This document shows, in pieces, positions 21,130 through 39,248 of a stretch of 64,000 bases of DNA. The stretch comes from Acidimicrobiales bacterium. GTDB lineage: Bacteria; Actinomycetota; Acidimicrobiia; Acidimicrobiales; Palsa-688. Location of the stretch: positions 1 to 64,000 of the forward strand of contig DATLUM010000106.1 in assembly GCA_035533095.1 (NCBI GenBank), written 5' to 3'. Position 1 is the first letter of the stretch. Every line of letters begins with the position of its first letter. Below the pieces are notes generated by a model. It searched no databases, was not told the origin of the DNA, and saw only the letters and a program-made list of their open reading frames with translations. Both the position numbers and the translations under genes were made by a program.

Positions 21130-22098
21130 GTGGCGAGCGACGACGAGTTCCGCAGGGTCGCCGAGGAGATCAGGGCCCTGGCCAGGTCCCTCGCGCGCGA
21201 CTTCAGGGACGCCGTCGACCAGTCGCGGGCCGGAGGCAGCCGGGCGGGCGAGGCGGTCCGCCACGGCCTGAAGGATGTGGCGGACGAGGCGCGCCGCGGT
21301 GTGCACGGCACGATCGCCGGCTTCCAGCCGCGCCCGCGGTCGCACAGGTCCCGCCATCGCGGGTGGTACCCGCCGGCCCCCCCGGGCGGTGATGCCCGGT
21401 ACGGCGGGCCGCCGCACCGGCCCCGACAGCGCAGCCGCCACCGATCGAGCGGCCGGAGACGGCGCGGCCTCCCGCCGGTCCGCCACCGCTGGGATGCCAC
21501 GACCGTCATCGGAACGCTGGCGGTCGTCTTCGGAGTCGCATGGCTGCTCGACGCGGTCCACGCCGCCCACATCTCTGCGGAAGGAGCCGTCGCCGCCGGG
21601 CTGATGGTTCTCGGCGCGGCGATGATCGTCACCGGCAGGACCGACTGGAGCCTGAGCCGGCGCTCGTGGCCCGTCTTCGCCGGGGCGGCCCTGATACTCG
21701 TGCTCGTAGCCACATCGAACACGTTCGGTGTGGGGTCGGGCACGAGCGGGCTGTCGTTTGGCAACAAGGTGGTCCCGGTCTTCCAGTCGGGGCAGACGGT
21801 GCAGAACGGCTTCGGCAACCTCACGGTCGACGCATCGAGACTCACCGCCGGGCAGAAGGTCACCGTGGAGAACATCGTCGGCAACATCCACGTGACCCTC
21901 CCCCATGGCCTTCCCGCCCGCATCGACGCCAGGATCCTCGCCGGCGTGATCTGCATCGACGGGCGCGATGTCGGCAACGGCGCGGGCGCGTCAGCCCACG
22001 AGGTCCTTCCTGGAGCGCCCGGCGTCGCTCCGGTGATCGTCGACGTGCACGAAGCGTCCGGCCGGATACTCGTCGGTCCGGGGGGGTGCAGCAAGTGA
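21130..22098 (+). CDS. LiaF-like membrane protein, probable accessory component of the adjacent two-component system
   Basis: 322 residues from a GTG start. The N-terminal about 125 residues are soluble, very Arg/His-rich and low complexity (HRSRHRGWYPP). Four hydrophobic segments follow (about 128-205), and a C-terminal beta-repeat domain reads QNGFGNLTVDASRL then VTVENIVGNIHVTLP, the pattern of the cell-wall-active-antibiotics-response (LiaF/YvqF) domain. In LiaFSR systems LiaF inhibits the kinase. The histidine kinase gene follows with a GTGA overlap. The charged N-terminal extension is unusual for the family. Confidence 0.75.
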   Translation: MASDDEFRRVAEEIRALARSLARDFRDAVDQSRAGGSRAGEAVRHGLKDVADEARRGVHGTIAGFQPRPRSHRSRHRGWYPPAPPGGDARYGGPPHRPRQRSRHRSSGRRRRGLPPVRHRWDATTVIGTLAVVFGVAWLLDAVHAAHISAEGAVAAGLMVLGAAMIVTGRTDWSLSRRSWPVFAGAALILVLVATSNTFGVGSGTSGLSFGNKVVPVFQSGQTVQNGFGNLTVDASRLTAGQKVTVENIVGNIHVTLPHGLPARIDARILAGVICIDGRDVGNGAGASAHEVLPGAPGVAPVIVDVHEASGRILVGPGGCSK

Positions 22099-23057
22099 GC
22101 ACCGCCACGGTGCAGCCCGCCCCCCAGCCTGCTGCCTCTCCAGCCCTCCCGGACCCTGGCGTCGCTACCTACCAGTACAGGACGTCACGCGTGGCGGTCG
22201 GAATGTTCTTCCTGCTGCTCGGCGCTGCGTTCCTGCTCGACAGCGCCGGCGTCTTCCGTGTGACGGCGGCTCTTTTCTGGCCGTTGTTCGTCATATCGGT
22301 CGGCGCCGGCCTGCTGATCCACAGGGCGCGGCGGCTGCAGGTCGAGGAGGACCGCAGCGCCCAGCTCGCCGTCGCCGAAGAGCGCGTGCGGATCGCCCGC
22401 GAGCTCCACGACATCGTCGCCCACGGCGTCTCCTTGATGACCATCCAGATCGCAGCTGCCCGCAGGGTTGCCGCGACCAAGCCCGAAACGGCAACGGAGT
22501 CCCTGGAAGCCGCGGAGCAGACCGGCAGGCAGACCCTCACGGAGCTGGAGGGGATGCTCGCGGTCCTCCGCGGCGCCGACGCGTCGATAGGCGCGGCAGC
22601 GGCTGGAAGCGGCCAGGCGGCGGCCGGACCCGATTATTCGCGGACGCCGCTTCCGCGCATCGCCGACATCCAGTCCCTCGTCGACTCGGTCCGTCAGGCA
22701 GGGCGCGAGATCCGGTTCCAGACGCTCGGCGAACCTCACCAACTCGCGGCGAGCGTCGACATGATCGTCTACCGGGTCCTGCAGGAGGCGCTCACCAACG
22801 CGGTCCGCTACGCCGGCGATGCGCCGATCGACGTACAGCTCATTTTCGCACCCACCGCGGTCACGGTCTTCGTCGACGACGAGGGCCCCGGAGCCGGAGC
22901 CGTGTCCCGCCACGCCGGCGGCCCCGCCGCCGGGCACGGGCTCGCCGGCATGCAGGAGCGTCTCACCGCAGTGGGGGGCATCCTGGAAGCCGGTCCTCGC
23001 AAGCCGGGTCCCGGCTGGCGCGTGTACGCCACCATCCCCGCCATCCCCGTCAGCTAG
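22095..23057 (+). CDS. Histidine kinase, HisKA_3 (NarL/LiaS-like) type
   Basis: 320 residues from the GTG overlapping the previous stop. Two transmembrane segments at about 33-80 with almost no outside loop, as in intramembrane-sensing kinases such as LiaS. The dimerisation box is ERVRIARELHDIVAHGVS (phospho-acceptor His near 103), the N box is LQEALTNAVRYA, and the ATP lid GHGLAGMQERL. The lack of an extracellular sensor implies that the neighbouring LiaF-like protein or the membrane state provides the signal. The response regulator gene follows after about 110 bp. Confidence 0.9.
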   Translation: MSTATVQPAPQPAASPALPDPGVATYQYRTSRVAVGMFFLLLGAAFLLDSAGVFRVTAALFWPLFVISVGAGLLIHRARRLQVEEDRSAQLAVAEERVRIARELHDIVAHGVSLMTIQIAAARRVAATKPETATESLEAAEQTGRQTLTELEGMLAVLRGADASIGAAAAGSGQAAAGPDYSRTPLPRIADIQSLVDSVRQAGREIRFQTLGEPHQLAASVDMIVYRVLQEALTNAVRYAGDAPIDVQLIFAPTAVTVFVDDEGPGAGAVSRHAGGPAAGHGLAGMQERLTAVGGILEAGPRKPGPGWRVYATIPAIPVS

Positions 23058-23169
23058 CCCCAGACGACGGCTCCTGCCGAGCGCCGGGATCGAACGTCGA
23101 GGGCAGGGCATGGCCTCGCCCTGTACGCCCATCACGGCAGCGGTTGGCGGCTTGGGCGAGACTGGGGGC

Positions 23170-23835
23170 GTGATCCGGCTCCTCCTGGCTGACGACGAGG
23201 CGATGGTGCGCAAGGGCCTGCGGCTCGTGCTCGAGACCGAGGACGACCTGCAGGTCGTCGGCGAGGCCTCGGACGGCTACGAGGCGATCGAAGAGGCGAG
23301 GCGGCTTCGCCCCGACGTGGTCCTGATGGACGTCCGCATGCCGCGCATGGATGGCGTCGAAGCGTGCCGGCGCCTGGTCGAGGACAGCGGCACCAAGGTG
23401 GTCGTGCTGACCACATTCGACCTCGACGAGCACCTTTTCGCGGCTGTACGCGCCGGCGCCAGCGGCTTCCTGCTGAAAGCGTCGCCACCTGAGGAGTTGG
23501 TCAACGCCATCCGGGCGGCCCACGCCGGAAACGCCCTCGTGGAGCCGAAGATGACCAAGCGGCTCCTGGAGGAGTTCGCGCGCAGGCCGGACTCCGTCCC
23601 ACCCGGACGGATCCCCGACCGCTTCGCCGAGCTGACCGAGCGGGAGGTCGACGTGCTTCGCGAGGTGGTGAGCGGCGCCAGCAACGCGGAGATCGCCGAG
23701 CGGCTCTACATCAGCGAGACCACGGTGAAGACACACGTGAACCACATCCTGAGCAAGTTGGGGGTGCGCGACCGGATACAGGCGGTGGTCCTCGCGTACG
23801 ACCATGGTCTCGTTGAACCTGGCGCCGGCCGCTAG
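23170..23835 (+). CDS. NarL/LuxR-family response regulator
   Basis: 221 residues from GTG 23170 (VIRLLLADDEAMVRKGL), the usual N-terminus; an in-frame ATG at 23110 with GAGGG upstream is an alternative. Receiver domain with the phospho-acceptor Asp in [13 protein letters not shown] (about residue 53) and the switch residues VVVLTTFD and LLKASPPEEL. The C-terminal HTH reads LTEREVDVLREVVSG then ETTVKTHVNHILSKLGV. Cognate partner of the upstream kinase by position and family (LiaR-like). Likely targets are its own operon and the small membrane protein gene downstream. Confidence 0.92.
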   Translation: MIRLLLADDEAMVRKGLRLVLETEDDLQVVGEASDGYEAIEEARRLRPDVVLMDVRMPRMDGVEACRRLVEDSGTKVVVLTTFDLDEHLFAAVRAGASGFLLKASPPEELVNAIRAAHAGNALVEPKMTKRLLEEFARRPDSVPPGRIPDRFAELTEREVDVLREVVSGASNAEIAERLYISETTVKTHVNHILSKLGVRDRIQAVVLAYDHGLVEPGAGR

Positions 23836-23931
23836 ACCGAATCCCCCGACAGATGGAGGCCGGAATCGCTCTCAGGGACGATGACCTCGACGGGGACGGT
23901 CTTTATCCTTGGTTGCACAAGGAGGACAGAG

Positions 23932-24189
23932 ATGCACAGCTTCGACAGCGGCCCCCTGGGTGCGCAGTTCCACGAGGTGACCGGAGGTGGGGACGACCCT
24001 GAGCGCCACAGCGCCTTCAGCCTGATCGCGCTGATCGCAGTGGTGGCCGTACTGGCCGTTATGGCGCTCGGTCTCGTCTTCTTGGTTCTCGGTTTCGTGG
24101 CGAGCATCGCCGGGGCCATCCTCAAGATCGTGATCCTGGCTGCGGTGGCAGCGTTCATCTGGAAGCGGGTCATGCGCCGTTGTCACTGA
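23932..24189 (+). CDS. Small membrane protein
   Basis: 85 residues from ATG 23932, chosen for the AAGGAGG site seven bases upstream; a longer in-frame start at 23881 lacks one. A soluble N-terminus of about 25 residues is followed by one long or two short membrane helices (SLIALIAVVAVLAVMALGLVFLVLG and GAILKIVILAAVAAFI) and the basic tail WKRVMRRCH. No named family. Its location right after a LiaFSR-like system suggests a phage-shock-type membrane-stress protein, which is inference only. Confidence 0.75.
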   Translation: MHSFDSGPLGAQFHEVTGGGDDPERHSAFSLIALIAVVAVLAVMALGLVFLVLGFVASIAGAILKIVILAAVAAFIWKRVMRRCH

Positions 24190-24238: not shown

Positions 24239-24267
24239 TTGACACGCCCCCGCCCGGGTCGTTGAAT
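24239..24267 (+). promoter_or_regulatory. Consensus housekeeping promoter for the downstream RNA
   Basis: A perfect -35 hexamer TTGACA (24239-24244) is followed by exactly 17 bp and the -10-like TTGAAT (24262-24267, four of six consensus bases including the invariant final T). A full TTGACA with ideal spacing is uncommon in such G+C-rich sequence. Transcription would begin near 24273 and read into the structured region, not directly into a protein start. Confidence 0.6.
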
Positions 24268-24345
24268 GGGGTGAACGCACAACGGGAAGCTGGCCGCTGG
24301 ACGGACCCCGCCAGGGGCCGGCGGACAAGAGGGAAAGGAGGGCTC

Positions 24346-24390
24346 GTGGGAACATGGAGCTCGTCCGAGGAGGACGGTCCGCCCCGTTAG
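24346..24390 (+). CDS. Possible 14-codon leader peptide inside the structured RNA
   Basis: AAAGGAGG at 24334-24341 precedes a GTG by four bases. The frame reads VGTWSSSEEDGPPR and stops at TAG 24390, five bases before a 7-bp hairpin. A full Shine-Dalgarno with a very short frame directly before a hairpin is the layout of a translational leader, but a chance match cannot be excluded. Confidence 0.2.
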   Translation: MGTWSSSEEDGPPR

Positions 24391-24550
24391 ATCGGGGCTC
24401 GGAGCCTTCGAGCCCGAGCCCGTAAAGGAGCCGTCGCGATTTGCGGCCCCTCGACTTGGCCGGCCCTATGGCCGGGTGTCGTTTTGGCGTCACCCGGGAC
24501 GAGGCGGTCCCACAACGGAGAGCGGTGCCGCAGGCCGTCGATGGATGAAG

Positions 24551-24593
24551 GCGGCGCAGGGAACACCCACAGGGGGTGTGCCTGCGCCGCTTT
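24551..24593 (+). terminator. Rho-independent-type terminator hairpin
   Basis: A perfect 10-bp stem GCGGCGCAGG (24551-24560) with CCTGCGCCGC (24581-24590) encloses a second perfect 6-bp stem ACACCC/GGGTGT (24563-24568 with 24574-24579). Only three T residues follow, so termination may be partial. It sits 22 bp upstream of the next start codon and separates the RNA from that gene. Confidence 0.6.
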
Positions 24594-24614
24594 CGCGCGT
24601 GCGACGATGGTCCG

Positions 24615-25244
24615 GTGACAGACCGGCTGCCCGAGCCTCGCTTGCCCGGGAACGCCGTGGAACGCCGCCGGGGGGTGGAGCTGACGCCGGCAGAGCGCCA
24701 GGTGCGCCGGCGTAACCGGAAGCTGATGGCATGGGTGGCCGTGCCGGGCGTGCTGCTCGGGGTCGCCGCTCTCGCGGCGTCGCTCCTCGTCAGCGGCGGC
24801 GCGCCCGCGCCGAGCCCGCTGAGCGTGCCCGCCGGCTACCAGGCGGTCAACGACGGGGTCTTCGCCTACTCGGTCCCTCGCGCCTGGTCCAAGAACCTCG
24901 CCTACTCGGACGACACCGGAGACCTCGACTACTCGGGCAGCGACGGCTGGGCCGGCGAGTATCTCGGCGCCCGCAGCTCGGCACCTGGCGAGGGTGAGAG
25001 ACCACCGGCGTCGTTTGCCGATTTCGGGGAGACCCGCCCGACCGCCTACACGATCGGCCCAGCGCAGAAGATCAACGTCGCGGGTGCCACCGTCGCATAC
25101 CGCTACGAGATCACGCGGCCCGGCGGTTTCACCGCGGTGGCCATAAATGCCTGGCAGTCGTCGTCCGGAGCCGAGATCTGGCTCCTCGTTCACGCACCGG
25201 AGGCGGTGACCACCACGATCGTCTCGACCCTCAGGGCGGGCTAG
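24615..25244 (+). CDS. Membrane-anchored extracytoplasmic protein of unknown function
   Basis: 209 residues from GTG 24615. A charged cytoplasmic N-terminus (about 36 residues, ending RRRNRKLM), one transmembrane helix (AWVAVPGVLLGVAALAASLLV, about 37-57) and an outside domain of about 150 residues starting after PAPSPLSVPAG. The domain has alternating strands (GVFAYSVPRAWSKNL, ATVAYRYEITRPGGFTAVAI) like small secreted PsbP/lipoprotein-type folds, but I do not recognise it. It follows the RNA terminator hairpin immediately, so its expression may depend on read-through. Its TAG overlaps the TAG of the convergent CHAP gene by three bases. Confidence 0.7.
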   Translation: MTDRLPEPRLPGNAVERRRGVELTPAERQVRRRNRKLMAWVAVPGVLLGVAALAASLLVSGGAPAPSPLSVPAGYQAVNDGVFAYSVPRAWSKNLAYSDDTGDLDYSGSDGWAGEYLGARSSAPGEGERPPASFADFGETRPTAYTIGPAQKINVAGATVAYRYEITRPGGFTAVAINAWQSSSGAEIWLLVHAPEAVTTTIVSTLRAG

Positions 25245-26611
25245 GGAACCGCGTAGGCGAAGATCGGCATCCCGTTGTACTCCATCGAGTGGTCCGGCCG
25301 GAACGGGCCGTTGATTATGACGTTGAAGTAGCCCGTCGGGGCCGGCCCCGCGTCGCCTTCGATGGTGTCGATCGAACCGTCCGGCCACACCTGCGCGACC
25401 ACCCCGACGTGCTCGGCGGTGTCAACGTTCCACGGGCCGGTTCCGTACAGGACCAGATCTCCCGGGCTCGGCCGTGCGGACGGCGCCAGGACCGCCGTGT
25501 GGCTGGCAGCCCAGGTGTAGATGTCCCCGACGAAGGCATAGGTCGGGACGGCCACGCCGGCGCGCTGCCACACCCAGGTGGCGAATAGCGCGCACCAGGC
25601 CTCGCACGGCCCGTAGGGGTTGCAGAAGTAGCCGCTCACCGGATCGCCCTGGATCTGGCTCGTCGCGACCGAGACGATCGCTCCACCGCCACCAGGGTGC
25701 GCGAAGTCCGTCGGGAAGGCATCGGGCTCGAGCAGCCAGTAGCCCTTGCCGCTGGGTGTCGCTGCGATGGCCGAGATCGGCTCCACACGGGGCGTCCCGA
25801 GGTTGTTGCCGTAGAAGACGGCGTCGCCCTCGGTGTAAATGGCGCCGTTGGCGTTGGCGATCCAGTACCCCTTGCCGTCGCTGGTGGCGGCCATGCCGGT
25901 CGCCCACCCAGAGATGCCCTTGGCAGCGGGGGTCCCCTCGAACGGCGCGTCACCGAAGTTGAAGATGCCGCCGTCGCCGCCGACCATCCAGTAGCCGTCG
26001 CCGTCGGCCGTGGCAGCCATTCCCACGATCGGCGAGTTGAGTTTGACGGCGCCTTCGGACCCGAAGAACCTGGCGTCCCCGAAGTTGAAGATGCCACCGT
26101 CTGCGGCCACCAACCAGTACCCGTTGCCGGTCGGCGTGGAGGCGATTCCGACGATCGGCGAGTTGAGGTGCTGCCCGCCCATCGAGCCGAAGTACTTGGC
26201 GTCTCCGTAGTTGAAGACACCCCCGTCGGTGGCAACCAGCCAGTAGCCGCCGCCGTCGGGAGTCCCGACCATTCCGATCATCGGCGCGTAAAGGTCGACT
26301 GAACCAGCGGACCCGTAGAAACCGGCTCCTCCATAGTTGAATACACCGCCGTCCGCCGCGACGAGCCAGTACCCCGATCCTCCGCGGTTCGCTGCCATGC
26401 CGACTACGGGGGCCGATAGGTGCGTGTTCGTCGGTGAACCGGCGAACACGGCGTCGCCGTAGTTGAGCACGCCGGCGTCCGCGTACGCCGCCCGCTCGAC
26501 ACCGCCGAGGTGCGCCGCCGGTTGGCTCGGGGAAAGACCCCAGGCCGCGAACCCCGCTGCCGCGGCCAGGCCGGCCGCTCTGCGACATACACGTCCAACA
26601 AGACCTTTCAT
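25241..26611 (-). CDS. Secreted CHAP-domain cell-wall hydrolase with six tandem repeats
   Basis: 456 residues from ATG 26611 with a signal peptide (MKGLVGRVCRRAAGLAAAAG, to about 33). Residues about 45-300 are six repeats of about 42 residues with consensus GVFNYGDAxFFGS, PIVGMAATPDG and GYWLVAADG, a likely beta-propeller or wall-binding array. The C-terminal CHAP amidase/peptidase domain has the catalytic Cys in EAWCALFATWVW, the His in AEHVGVV and PSPGDLVLYG. It should cut peptidoglycan stems or cross-bridges outside the cell. The start overlaps the stop of the NlpC/P60 gene as TAATG, coupling the two. Repeats 5 and 6 have drifted most. Confidence 0.88.
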   Translation of the reverse strand: MKGLVGRVCRRAAGLAAAAGFAAWGLSPSQPAAHLGGVERAAYADAGVLNYGDAVFAGSPTNTHLSAPVVGMAANRGGSGYWLVAADGGVFNYGGAGFYGSAGSVDLYAPMIGMVGTPDGGGYWLVATDGGVFNYGDAKYFGSMGGQHLNSPIVGIASTPTGNGYWLVAADGGIFNFGDARFFGSEGAVKLNSPIVGMAATADGDGYWMVGGDGGIFNFGDAPFEGTPAAKGISGWATGMAATSDGKGYWIANANGAIYTEGDAVFYGNNLGTPRVEPISAIAATPSGKGYWLLEPDAFPTDFAHPGGGGAIVSVATSQIQGDPVSGYFCNPYGPCEAWCALFATWVWQRAGVAVPTYAFVGDIYTWAASHTAVLAPSARPSPGDLVLYGTGPWNVDTAEHVGVVAQVWPDGSIDTIEGDAGPAPTGYFNVIINGPFRPDHSMEYNGMPIFAYAVP

Positions 26612-27261
26612 TACGCCCCTCCTGGGCGAGTGGCGCCCACGAGCACCTCGCCACCCCACCTGCTGCCTGGAATGATAGGGAACCGATCCAGCCGGACCAA
26701 GGCACCCGTGTGAGGCGCGTCGACCATCTCCCCCGCGGGGTTGACGACGATGCCCACGTGCGTCACATCAGACGTGCTGGCACCGAAGAAAACGAGGTCG
26801 CCCGGCTCGAGCGCGTCACCGGGGAGCAGTTGCGGCCCGGCGTCGTACTGATCCTGCGCGACGCGGGGGATGGTCACGCCCGCGGCGCTCCACGCCGCTT
26901 GCGCGAGACCCGAGCAGTCGAAGCCCACCCCGGCCCGCTCCCCGCCCCACTGGTAGGGGGTTCCGATCTGGGCGTCCGCGTACGCGACGGCCGCCAGACC
27001 TTCGAGCGAGCCCGACCCACGGGGCCCTTCGGCCGCAGAAACCTCCGCGCATCGCGCCGCGTCCGCCGTGTCCTGCTGCACCCGCACTGATGACGTATCG
27101 GCAGTGGGCGCAGGAACCTCAAGTGGTGCCGTCTCACAACCGGCCTGGCTTGCCCGGTCCCCGAGCCCGAGGAGCGAAGCGCCCGCCGTGCCGGCGATCA
27201 GCACGGGGAGCATGATGGGCATGGCAACAGCGACAGCACAGGTCATTAGGATTGCTTTCAT
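26611..27261 (-). CDS. Secreted NlpC/P60 peptidoglycan endopeptidase
   Basis: 216 residues from ATG 27261, where a signal peptide begins (MKAILMTCAVAVAMPIMLPV, to about 28). The C-terminal NlpC/P60 domain has the catalytic Cys in FDCSGLAQAAW, His in VTHVGIVV and the third residue in DAPHTG. YADAQIGTPYQWGGE opens the domain and PGDLVFFG is conserved. It cleaves D-glutamyl-diaminopimelate bonds in stem peptides. Couples to the CHAP gene by TAATG. A -10 element TATAAC on the minus strand (27277-27272) lies about 11 bases from the ATG with no Shine-Dalgarno between, suggesting a leaderless message. Divergent from the pseudokinase gene. Confidence 0.9.
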   Translation of the reverse strand: MKAILMTCAVAVAMPIMLPVLIAGTAGASLLGLGDRASQAGCETAPLEVPAPTADTSSVRVQQDTADAARCAEVSAAEGPRGSGSLEGLAAVAYADAQIGTPYQWGGERAGVGFDCSGLAQAAWSAAGVTIPRVAQDQYDAGPQLLPGDALEPGDLVFFGASTSDVTHVGIVVNPAGEMVDAPHTGALVRLDRFPIIPGSRWGGEVLVGATRPGGA

Positions 27262-27345
27262 AGTATTTCGTGTTATAGCAGCTGGGCGGCGTCGCCCGCT
27301 CGCCCCGGTACGCTCGCGGGTCTCGAACCGACAGATGGAGGTCAC

Positions 27346-38979: not shown

Positions 38980-39248
38980 TGACCATGACGGTAGTAGACC
39001 AGAGCGACTAGTAAGGGGTTGACCTCAGCGGCTGACCTGGTCTTTGACCCCACACTCGCCCGGACACCCCGGGGCCCCTGCGGCCCCGCCGGCGGCCGGG
39101 ACTTACTCCTAAGCCGCACCATGATCAGCAGCGGTCAGCTGCCTTACGTGGGTCGTTTCGCCTGCGACTGGCATCGACTTTCAACCACAGACCCGCTGAG
39201 GTCCGCATTCAAATTACCCGGCCGGGCACCCCGCACGGCCCCGCAGGC

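Follow-up and report, generated by a model that had tools for sequence, protein, structure and literature searches.

Organization of the locus

A short transcription unit (24239-24600) is predicted in the window, that is, in the whole 64,000-nucleotide stretch of Acidimicrobiales DNA analysed. The unit features its own promoter and a strong terminator hairpin, and would yield an RNA of ~325 nt. Genes encoding a LiaF-like protein, a histidine kinase and a LuxR-type response regulator, followed by a small membrane protein, reside upstream (21130-24189), and a gene for a membrane-anchored protein starts downstream at 24615. Adjacent genes for CHAP-domain and NlpC/P60 proteins, kept in several type-A loci, are found on the minus strand (25241-27345), as is a full-length match to raiA RNA (RF03072, 146.6 bits; 39023-39201). 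Elements of the unit are listed in Table 1.

Table 1. Elements of the predicted transcription unit, in window coordinates
Element	Position	Strand	Remarks
Promoter	24239-24267	+	-35 TTGACA 24239-24244, 17-bp spacer, -10-like TTGAAT 24262-24267
5' untranslated region	24274-24332	+	~60 nt; sequence poorly conserved in alignments
Shine-Dalgarno (SD) GAAAGGAG	24333-24340	+	Invariant in 25/25 sequences of the first core alignment
Short ORF	24346-24390	+	14 codons, GTG start, VGTWSSSEEDGPPR, TAG stop; consensus SxEExxPP, six families
Internal SD-like GAGGAGG	24367-24373	+	Glu-Glu codons; the Pro codons follow after 5 nt (first) and 8 nt (second)
Strong hairpin P3 (GGGCUCGG/CCGAGCCC)	24395-24421	+	4 nt past the stop codon
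P5 around P6	24458-24509	+	P5 24458-24465 / 24503-24509; P6 24472-24481 / 24488-24497; covariation
Conserved GAGGCGGUCCCA	24501-24512	+	Contains the 3' strand of the P5/P6 element
Terminator hairpin	24547-24594	+	Arms 24547-24560 / 24581-24594, then UUUCGCGCG; unit ends at ~24600

The promoter hexamers and the 17-bp spacing reported in an earlier note on this DNA, including a perfect TTGACA, are present, and transcription is predicted from the sequence to start at ~24274. A strict scan of the region did not list this promoter, because position 2 of the -10 hexamer TTGAAT is not the usual A. In the alignments, most type-A relatives carry TTGACA and TTGAAT, TTTAAT or TCTAAT, spaced by 17-18 bp, at the same place. 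The terminator, which the earlier note had placed at 24551-24590, is real and covaries, with two-sided changes in 7 of 13 pairs in the type-A alignment. Past its hairpin come a short U run and CGCG instead of a long U tract, in the window (24595-24600) as in most relatives. Promoter and terminator are conserved in varied contexts, as for an independent transcription unit. The sequence CACAACGG, noticed earlier near both ends, indeed occurs at 24278 and 24511; the first copy is not conserved, and the repetition is therefore probably a coincidence.

Distribution

A DNA search against 61 relatives revealed graded similarity in the GTDB family of the window, centred on query positions 104-154, a core which corresponds to the short ORF. 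Homologues were identified by pattern search in 20 of the 32 genomes of this family. The same type of scan, applied to species genomes, matched 23 contigs: some are titled Acidimicrobiaceae, Acidimicrobiales or Acidiferrimicrobium, others belong to unplaced 'Actinomycetes' bins, and one bears the label Acidobacteriota. A cultured relative, Acidiferrimicrobium sp. IK, is among the carriers. With sequence profiles of the core, members were also detected in another five GTDB families of the order Acidimicrobiales, homology being based on short sequences and the profile E-values being rough. One member is divergent (MSATTASGEDAPPG). Weak matches within the order (L090-L094, L133, L134, L143, L144, L146, L151) were rejected, because the SD-peptide-stop arrangement is missing.

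No other member was recognised by profile search in 346 genomes evenly drawn over the phylum, a search in which filters were stricter, so that weak relatives may be missed; the phylum-wide matches obtained were rejected on inspection for the same defect of arrangement. Distribution is patchy, no copy being detectable in some >90% complete genomes of the same families. Many of the genomes compared are incomplete metagenome assemblies.

A conserved short ORF

The interval had been described as about 320 bp without a real gene. It holds a conserved ORF of 14 codons, which is its best-conserved feature. Start and stop codons are found in all the loci collected, and SD, start, stop and the SxEExxPP consensus recur, with few exceptions, in 37 loci, which represent six or more GTDB families. 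In relatives the ORF begins with GTG or ATG, and mostly spans 13-16 codons before the stop; the predicted peptide measures accordingly 13-16 residues in most loci, 14 in the window. In 17 of 36 loci the 75 nt preceding the start contain an in-frame stop codon, which argues against a longer ORF. At locus L086 (G144; one genus), the ORF runs on through the following hairpin, and reaches 27 codons.

Changes in the ORF were tabulated by codon in 35 loci. Glu-8 is encoded by GAG or GAA in all (GAG in 31), Glu-9 by GAG in 34. For Pro, the first codon is always CCG or CCA, and the second is CCC, CCT or CCG in 34 loci. The two Glu and two Pro codons thus vary at the third base only, bar one E-to-G and one P-to-H change. 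Computed over 29 distinct eight-codon blocks, pN/pS amounts to 0.49 for the frame of the ORF, and to 1.67 and 0.92 for the two alternative frames. Codon table and pN/pS values both indicate coding selection. Coding conservation in place of structure was, for the earlier note, an outcome that would speak against a structured RNA; the former has been found, and structure is also present.

RNA structure and covariation

The single-strand fold of 24273-24600 has an energy of -187 kcal/mol (z = -6.0 relative to shuffled sequences, 0/100), in keeping with the strong hairpins noticed before. The mean folding z is -4.1 over 31 relatives, and drops to -1.8 when the last 60 nt are removed; much of the folding excess is therefore due to the terminator. 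Searches of region 24239-24600 against Rfam, at gathering and at relaxed thresholds, returned chance-level matches only, and eleven related loci gave no match either; the view of a promoter-driven structured RNA of no recognised class stands.

A strong hairpin close to the stop codon is found in nearly all relatives, its sequences being unrelated. Farther downstream, P5, P6 and the terminator were predicted by RNAalifold from 11 type-A sequences. In this alignment, restricted to the family of the window, two-sided changes mark 14 of the 30 pairs of the three elements. The covariation score is 0.383, compared to 0.196 (sd 0.020) in shuffled alignments, none of 500 reaching it, and to at most 0.125 when the structure is slid, a control somewhat flattering because the structure came from the same alignment. 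Covarying helices, which had been named as a support for the RNA, are hence found within this family. The motif GAGGYGGUCCCA is likewise kept within the family; in type B a related hairpin is kept, and is followed by UCGAGGUGGUCCCAAAA. The 3' half cannot be aligned between families, and an RNA-level function common to all members is therefore only putative.

Two further pairings were considered. Pairing of GGUCCGCC in the ORF with GGCGGUCC in the 3' region was dropped, compensating changes being missing where the ORF has CCA. A hairpin within the ORF that would sequester the SD is suggestive, and is not claimed because its register differs between types and the unpaired probabilities of the SD vary from 0.11 to 0.77.

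The locus might be a simple micro-mRNA, whose only active product is the mature peptide, a small protein regulator, and whose 3' region serves as a stabilising UTR. Of all the elements, only the peptide can be recognised as conserved across six families, which agrees with this reading; however, covariation of P5/P6 and retention of GAGGYGGUCCCA in the family of the window go beyond the needs of a passive UTR, and make it rather unlikely.

Gene neighbourhood

Proteins encoded around 25 loci were clustered, genes having been called with a simple script. In type A the RNA resides between the LiaFSR-like operon, or other genes, and the gene for the membrane-anchored protein. The LiaF-like/kinase/LuxR set is kept upstream in several type-A loci, and is one of several contexts only; the link to stress proposed earlier on its account is not sustained.

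The presence of a homologous gene past the terminator in type A, and an anatomy reminiscent of leader peptides, would fit a cis-acting leader (attenuator) of the gene at 24615. Yet at 12 of the 25 loci, namely six type-B and four type-C loci plus L040 and L049, the next gene is encoded on the other strand, so that a co-directional target is missing there, and homologues of the type-A downstream gene are also found without the RNA upstream. The 12 opposite-strand cases indicate that the RNA is not a cis leader: such a role is contradicted as general function, and is very improbable for the gene at 24615. Varied neighbours and opposite-strand next genes therefore mark the unit as autonomous.

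Possible functions

In the safest terms, and as far as comparison of sequences goes, the locus is a predicted stand-alone gene for a 14-residue peptide and a structured 3' region: the unit features putative promoter and terminator of its own, a coding-constrained ORF preceded by an SD, a hairpin after the stop, and 3' helices which covary in the family of the window. The predicted peptide is the part conserved across families, the 3' RNA region is clade-specific. The earlier observation was thus real and incomplete, the ORF having been missed, and its interpretation is partly supported; what had been taken for a non-coding region is probably a new peptide-encoding structured RNA. We favour, with moderate confidence, a probable dual-function sRNA: a small stand-alone gene of Acidimicrobiales whose RNA would encode an acidic SxEExxPP peptide and carry a structured 3' region.

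Several features of the ORF are of a kind linked to slow translation: Pro-Pro, found in 36 of 37 loci, the SD-like GAGGAGG, the codon before Pro-Pro, and the hairpin at the stop. The codon before Pro-Pro (24376-24378 in the window) ends in U in 36 of 37 loci (GGU, GAU, ACU, GCU, AAU), for G, D, T, A and N alike; U-ending codons of that kind are a minority (3-16%) in genes of the window. The 14-codon ORF would be translated, and ribosomes may slow down at the Pro-Pro codons, held by the SD-like run 5-8 nt upstream and by the hairpin just downstream; the finished peptide, the 3' RNA, or both, would then act in trans on some partner. Pausing at PPX is reported to be context-dependent, and translation decreased when an acidic residue stood at -2 relative to the P-site Pro (PMC4140641). 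In the same reporters internal SD affinity had no effect on EF-P-dependent pausing (PMC4140641), which weakens the SD part of the idea; given such mixed results, pausing at the ORF is a step that we infer.

The same features would suit an autonomous sensor of ribosome pausing, in which nascent chain and codons matter, not the free peptide, and a stall at Pro-Pro/stop refolds or stabilises the 3' RNA of the sensor itself as output. This reading is unlikely, since 3' regions differ between families and offer no common output, and Glu is retained as GAA in four sequences, at the cost of a weaker SD-like run, a sign that the amino acid is what matters. In broader terms, a free-standing translation sensor, made by a pausing ORF uncoupled from any downstream gene and signalling through its own RNA or peptide, is a doubtful, tentative proposal.

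The probable dual-function RNA is a conserved gene which lies outside Rfam and below the usual length limits of gene calling, in a poorly studied class of actinobacteria. Its anatomy joins traits of leader peptides (a pausing-type ORF and an adjacent hairpin) with those of autonomous small RNAs, and the system permits clear experimental separation of peptide, pausing and RNA as active product.

Comparison with known systems

Stalling leader peptides of the TnaC, ilv and erm types measure 14-15 codons, and feature a strong SD, a Pro-rich end near the stop and an adjacent hairpin. The Acidimicrobiales unit is alike in all these traits. In contrast to such leaders, it ends in its own terminator, and many loci have no downstream gene in cis.

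With 6S RNA and Ms1 RNA, the RNA polymerase-binding RNAs to which the locus had been likened, it shares a strong structure and a length of a few hundred nt. The lack of an Rfam match, a predicted multi-hairpin fold with a conserved ORF instead of an ORF-less rod with a central bubble, and neighbours different from those reported for Ms1 (PMC9130861) leave this identity a practically negligible probability.

sRNAs that code for peptides form an established class (PMC5521070); Spot 42, according to work cited in PMC11188072, encodes a 15-residue protein which binds CRP. Spot 42/SpfP (15 residues), SR1/SR1P and SgrS/SgrT resemble the present RNA as small stand-alone units which have a promoter and a terminator of their own and combine a short ORF with a structured RNA. 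These dual-function sRNAs have no known sequence relation to it; in contrast to them, the RNA described here has been found so far in Acidimicrobiales only, and is marked by the peptide motif SxEExxPP.
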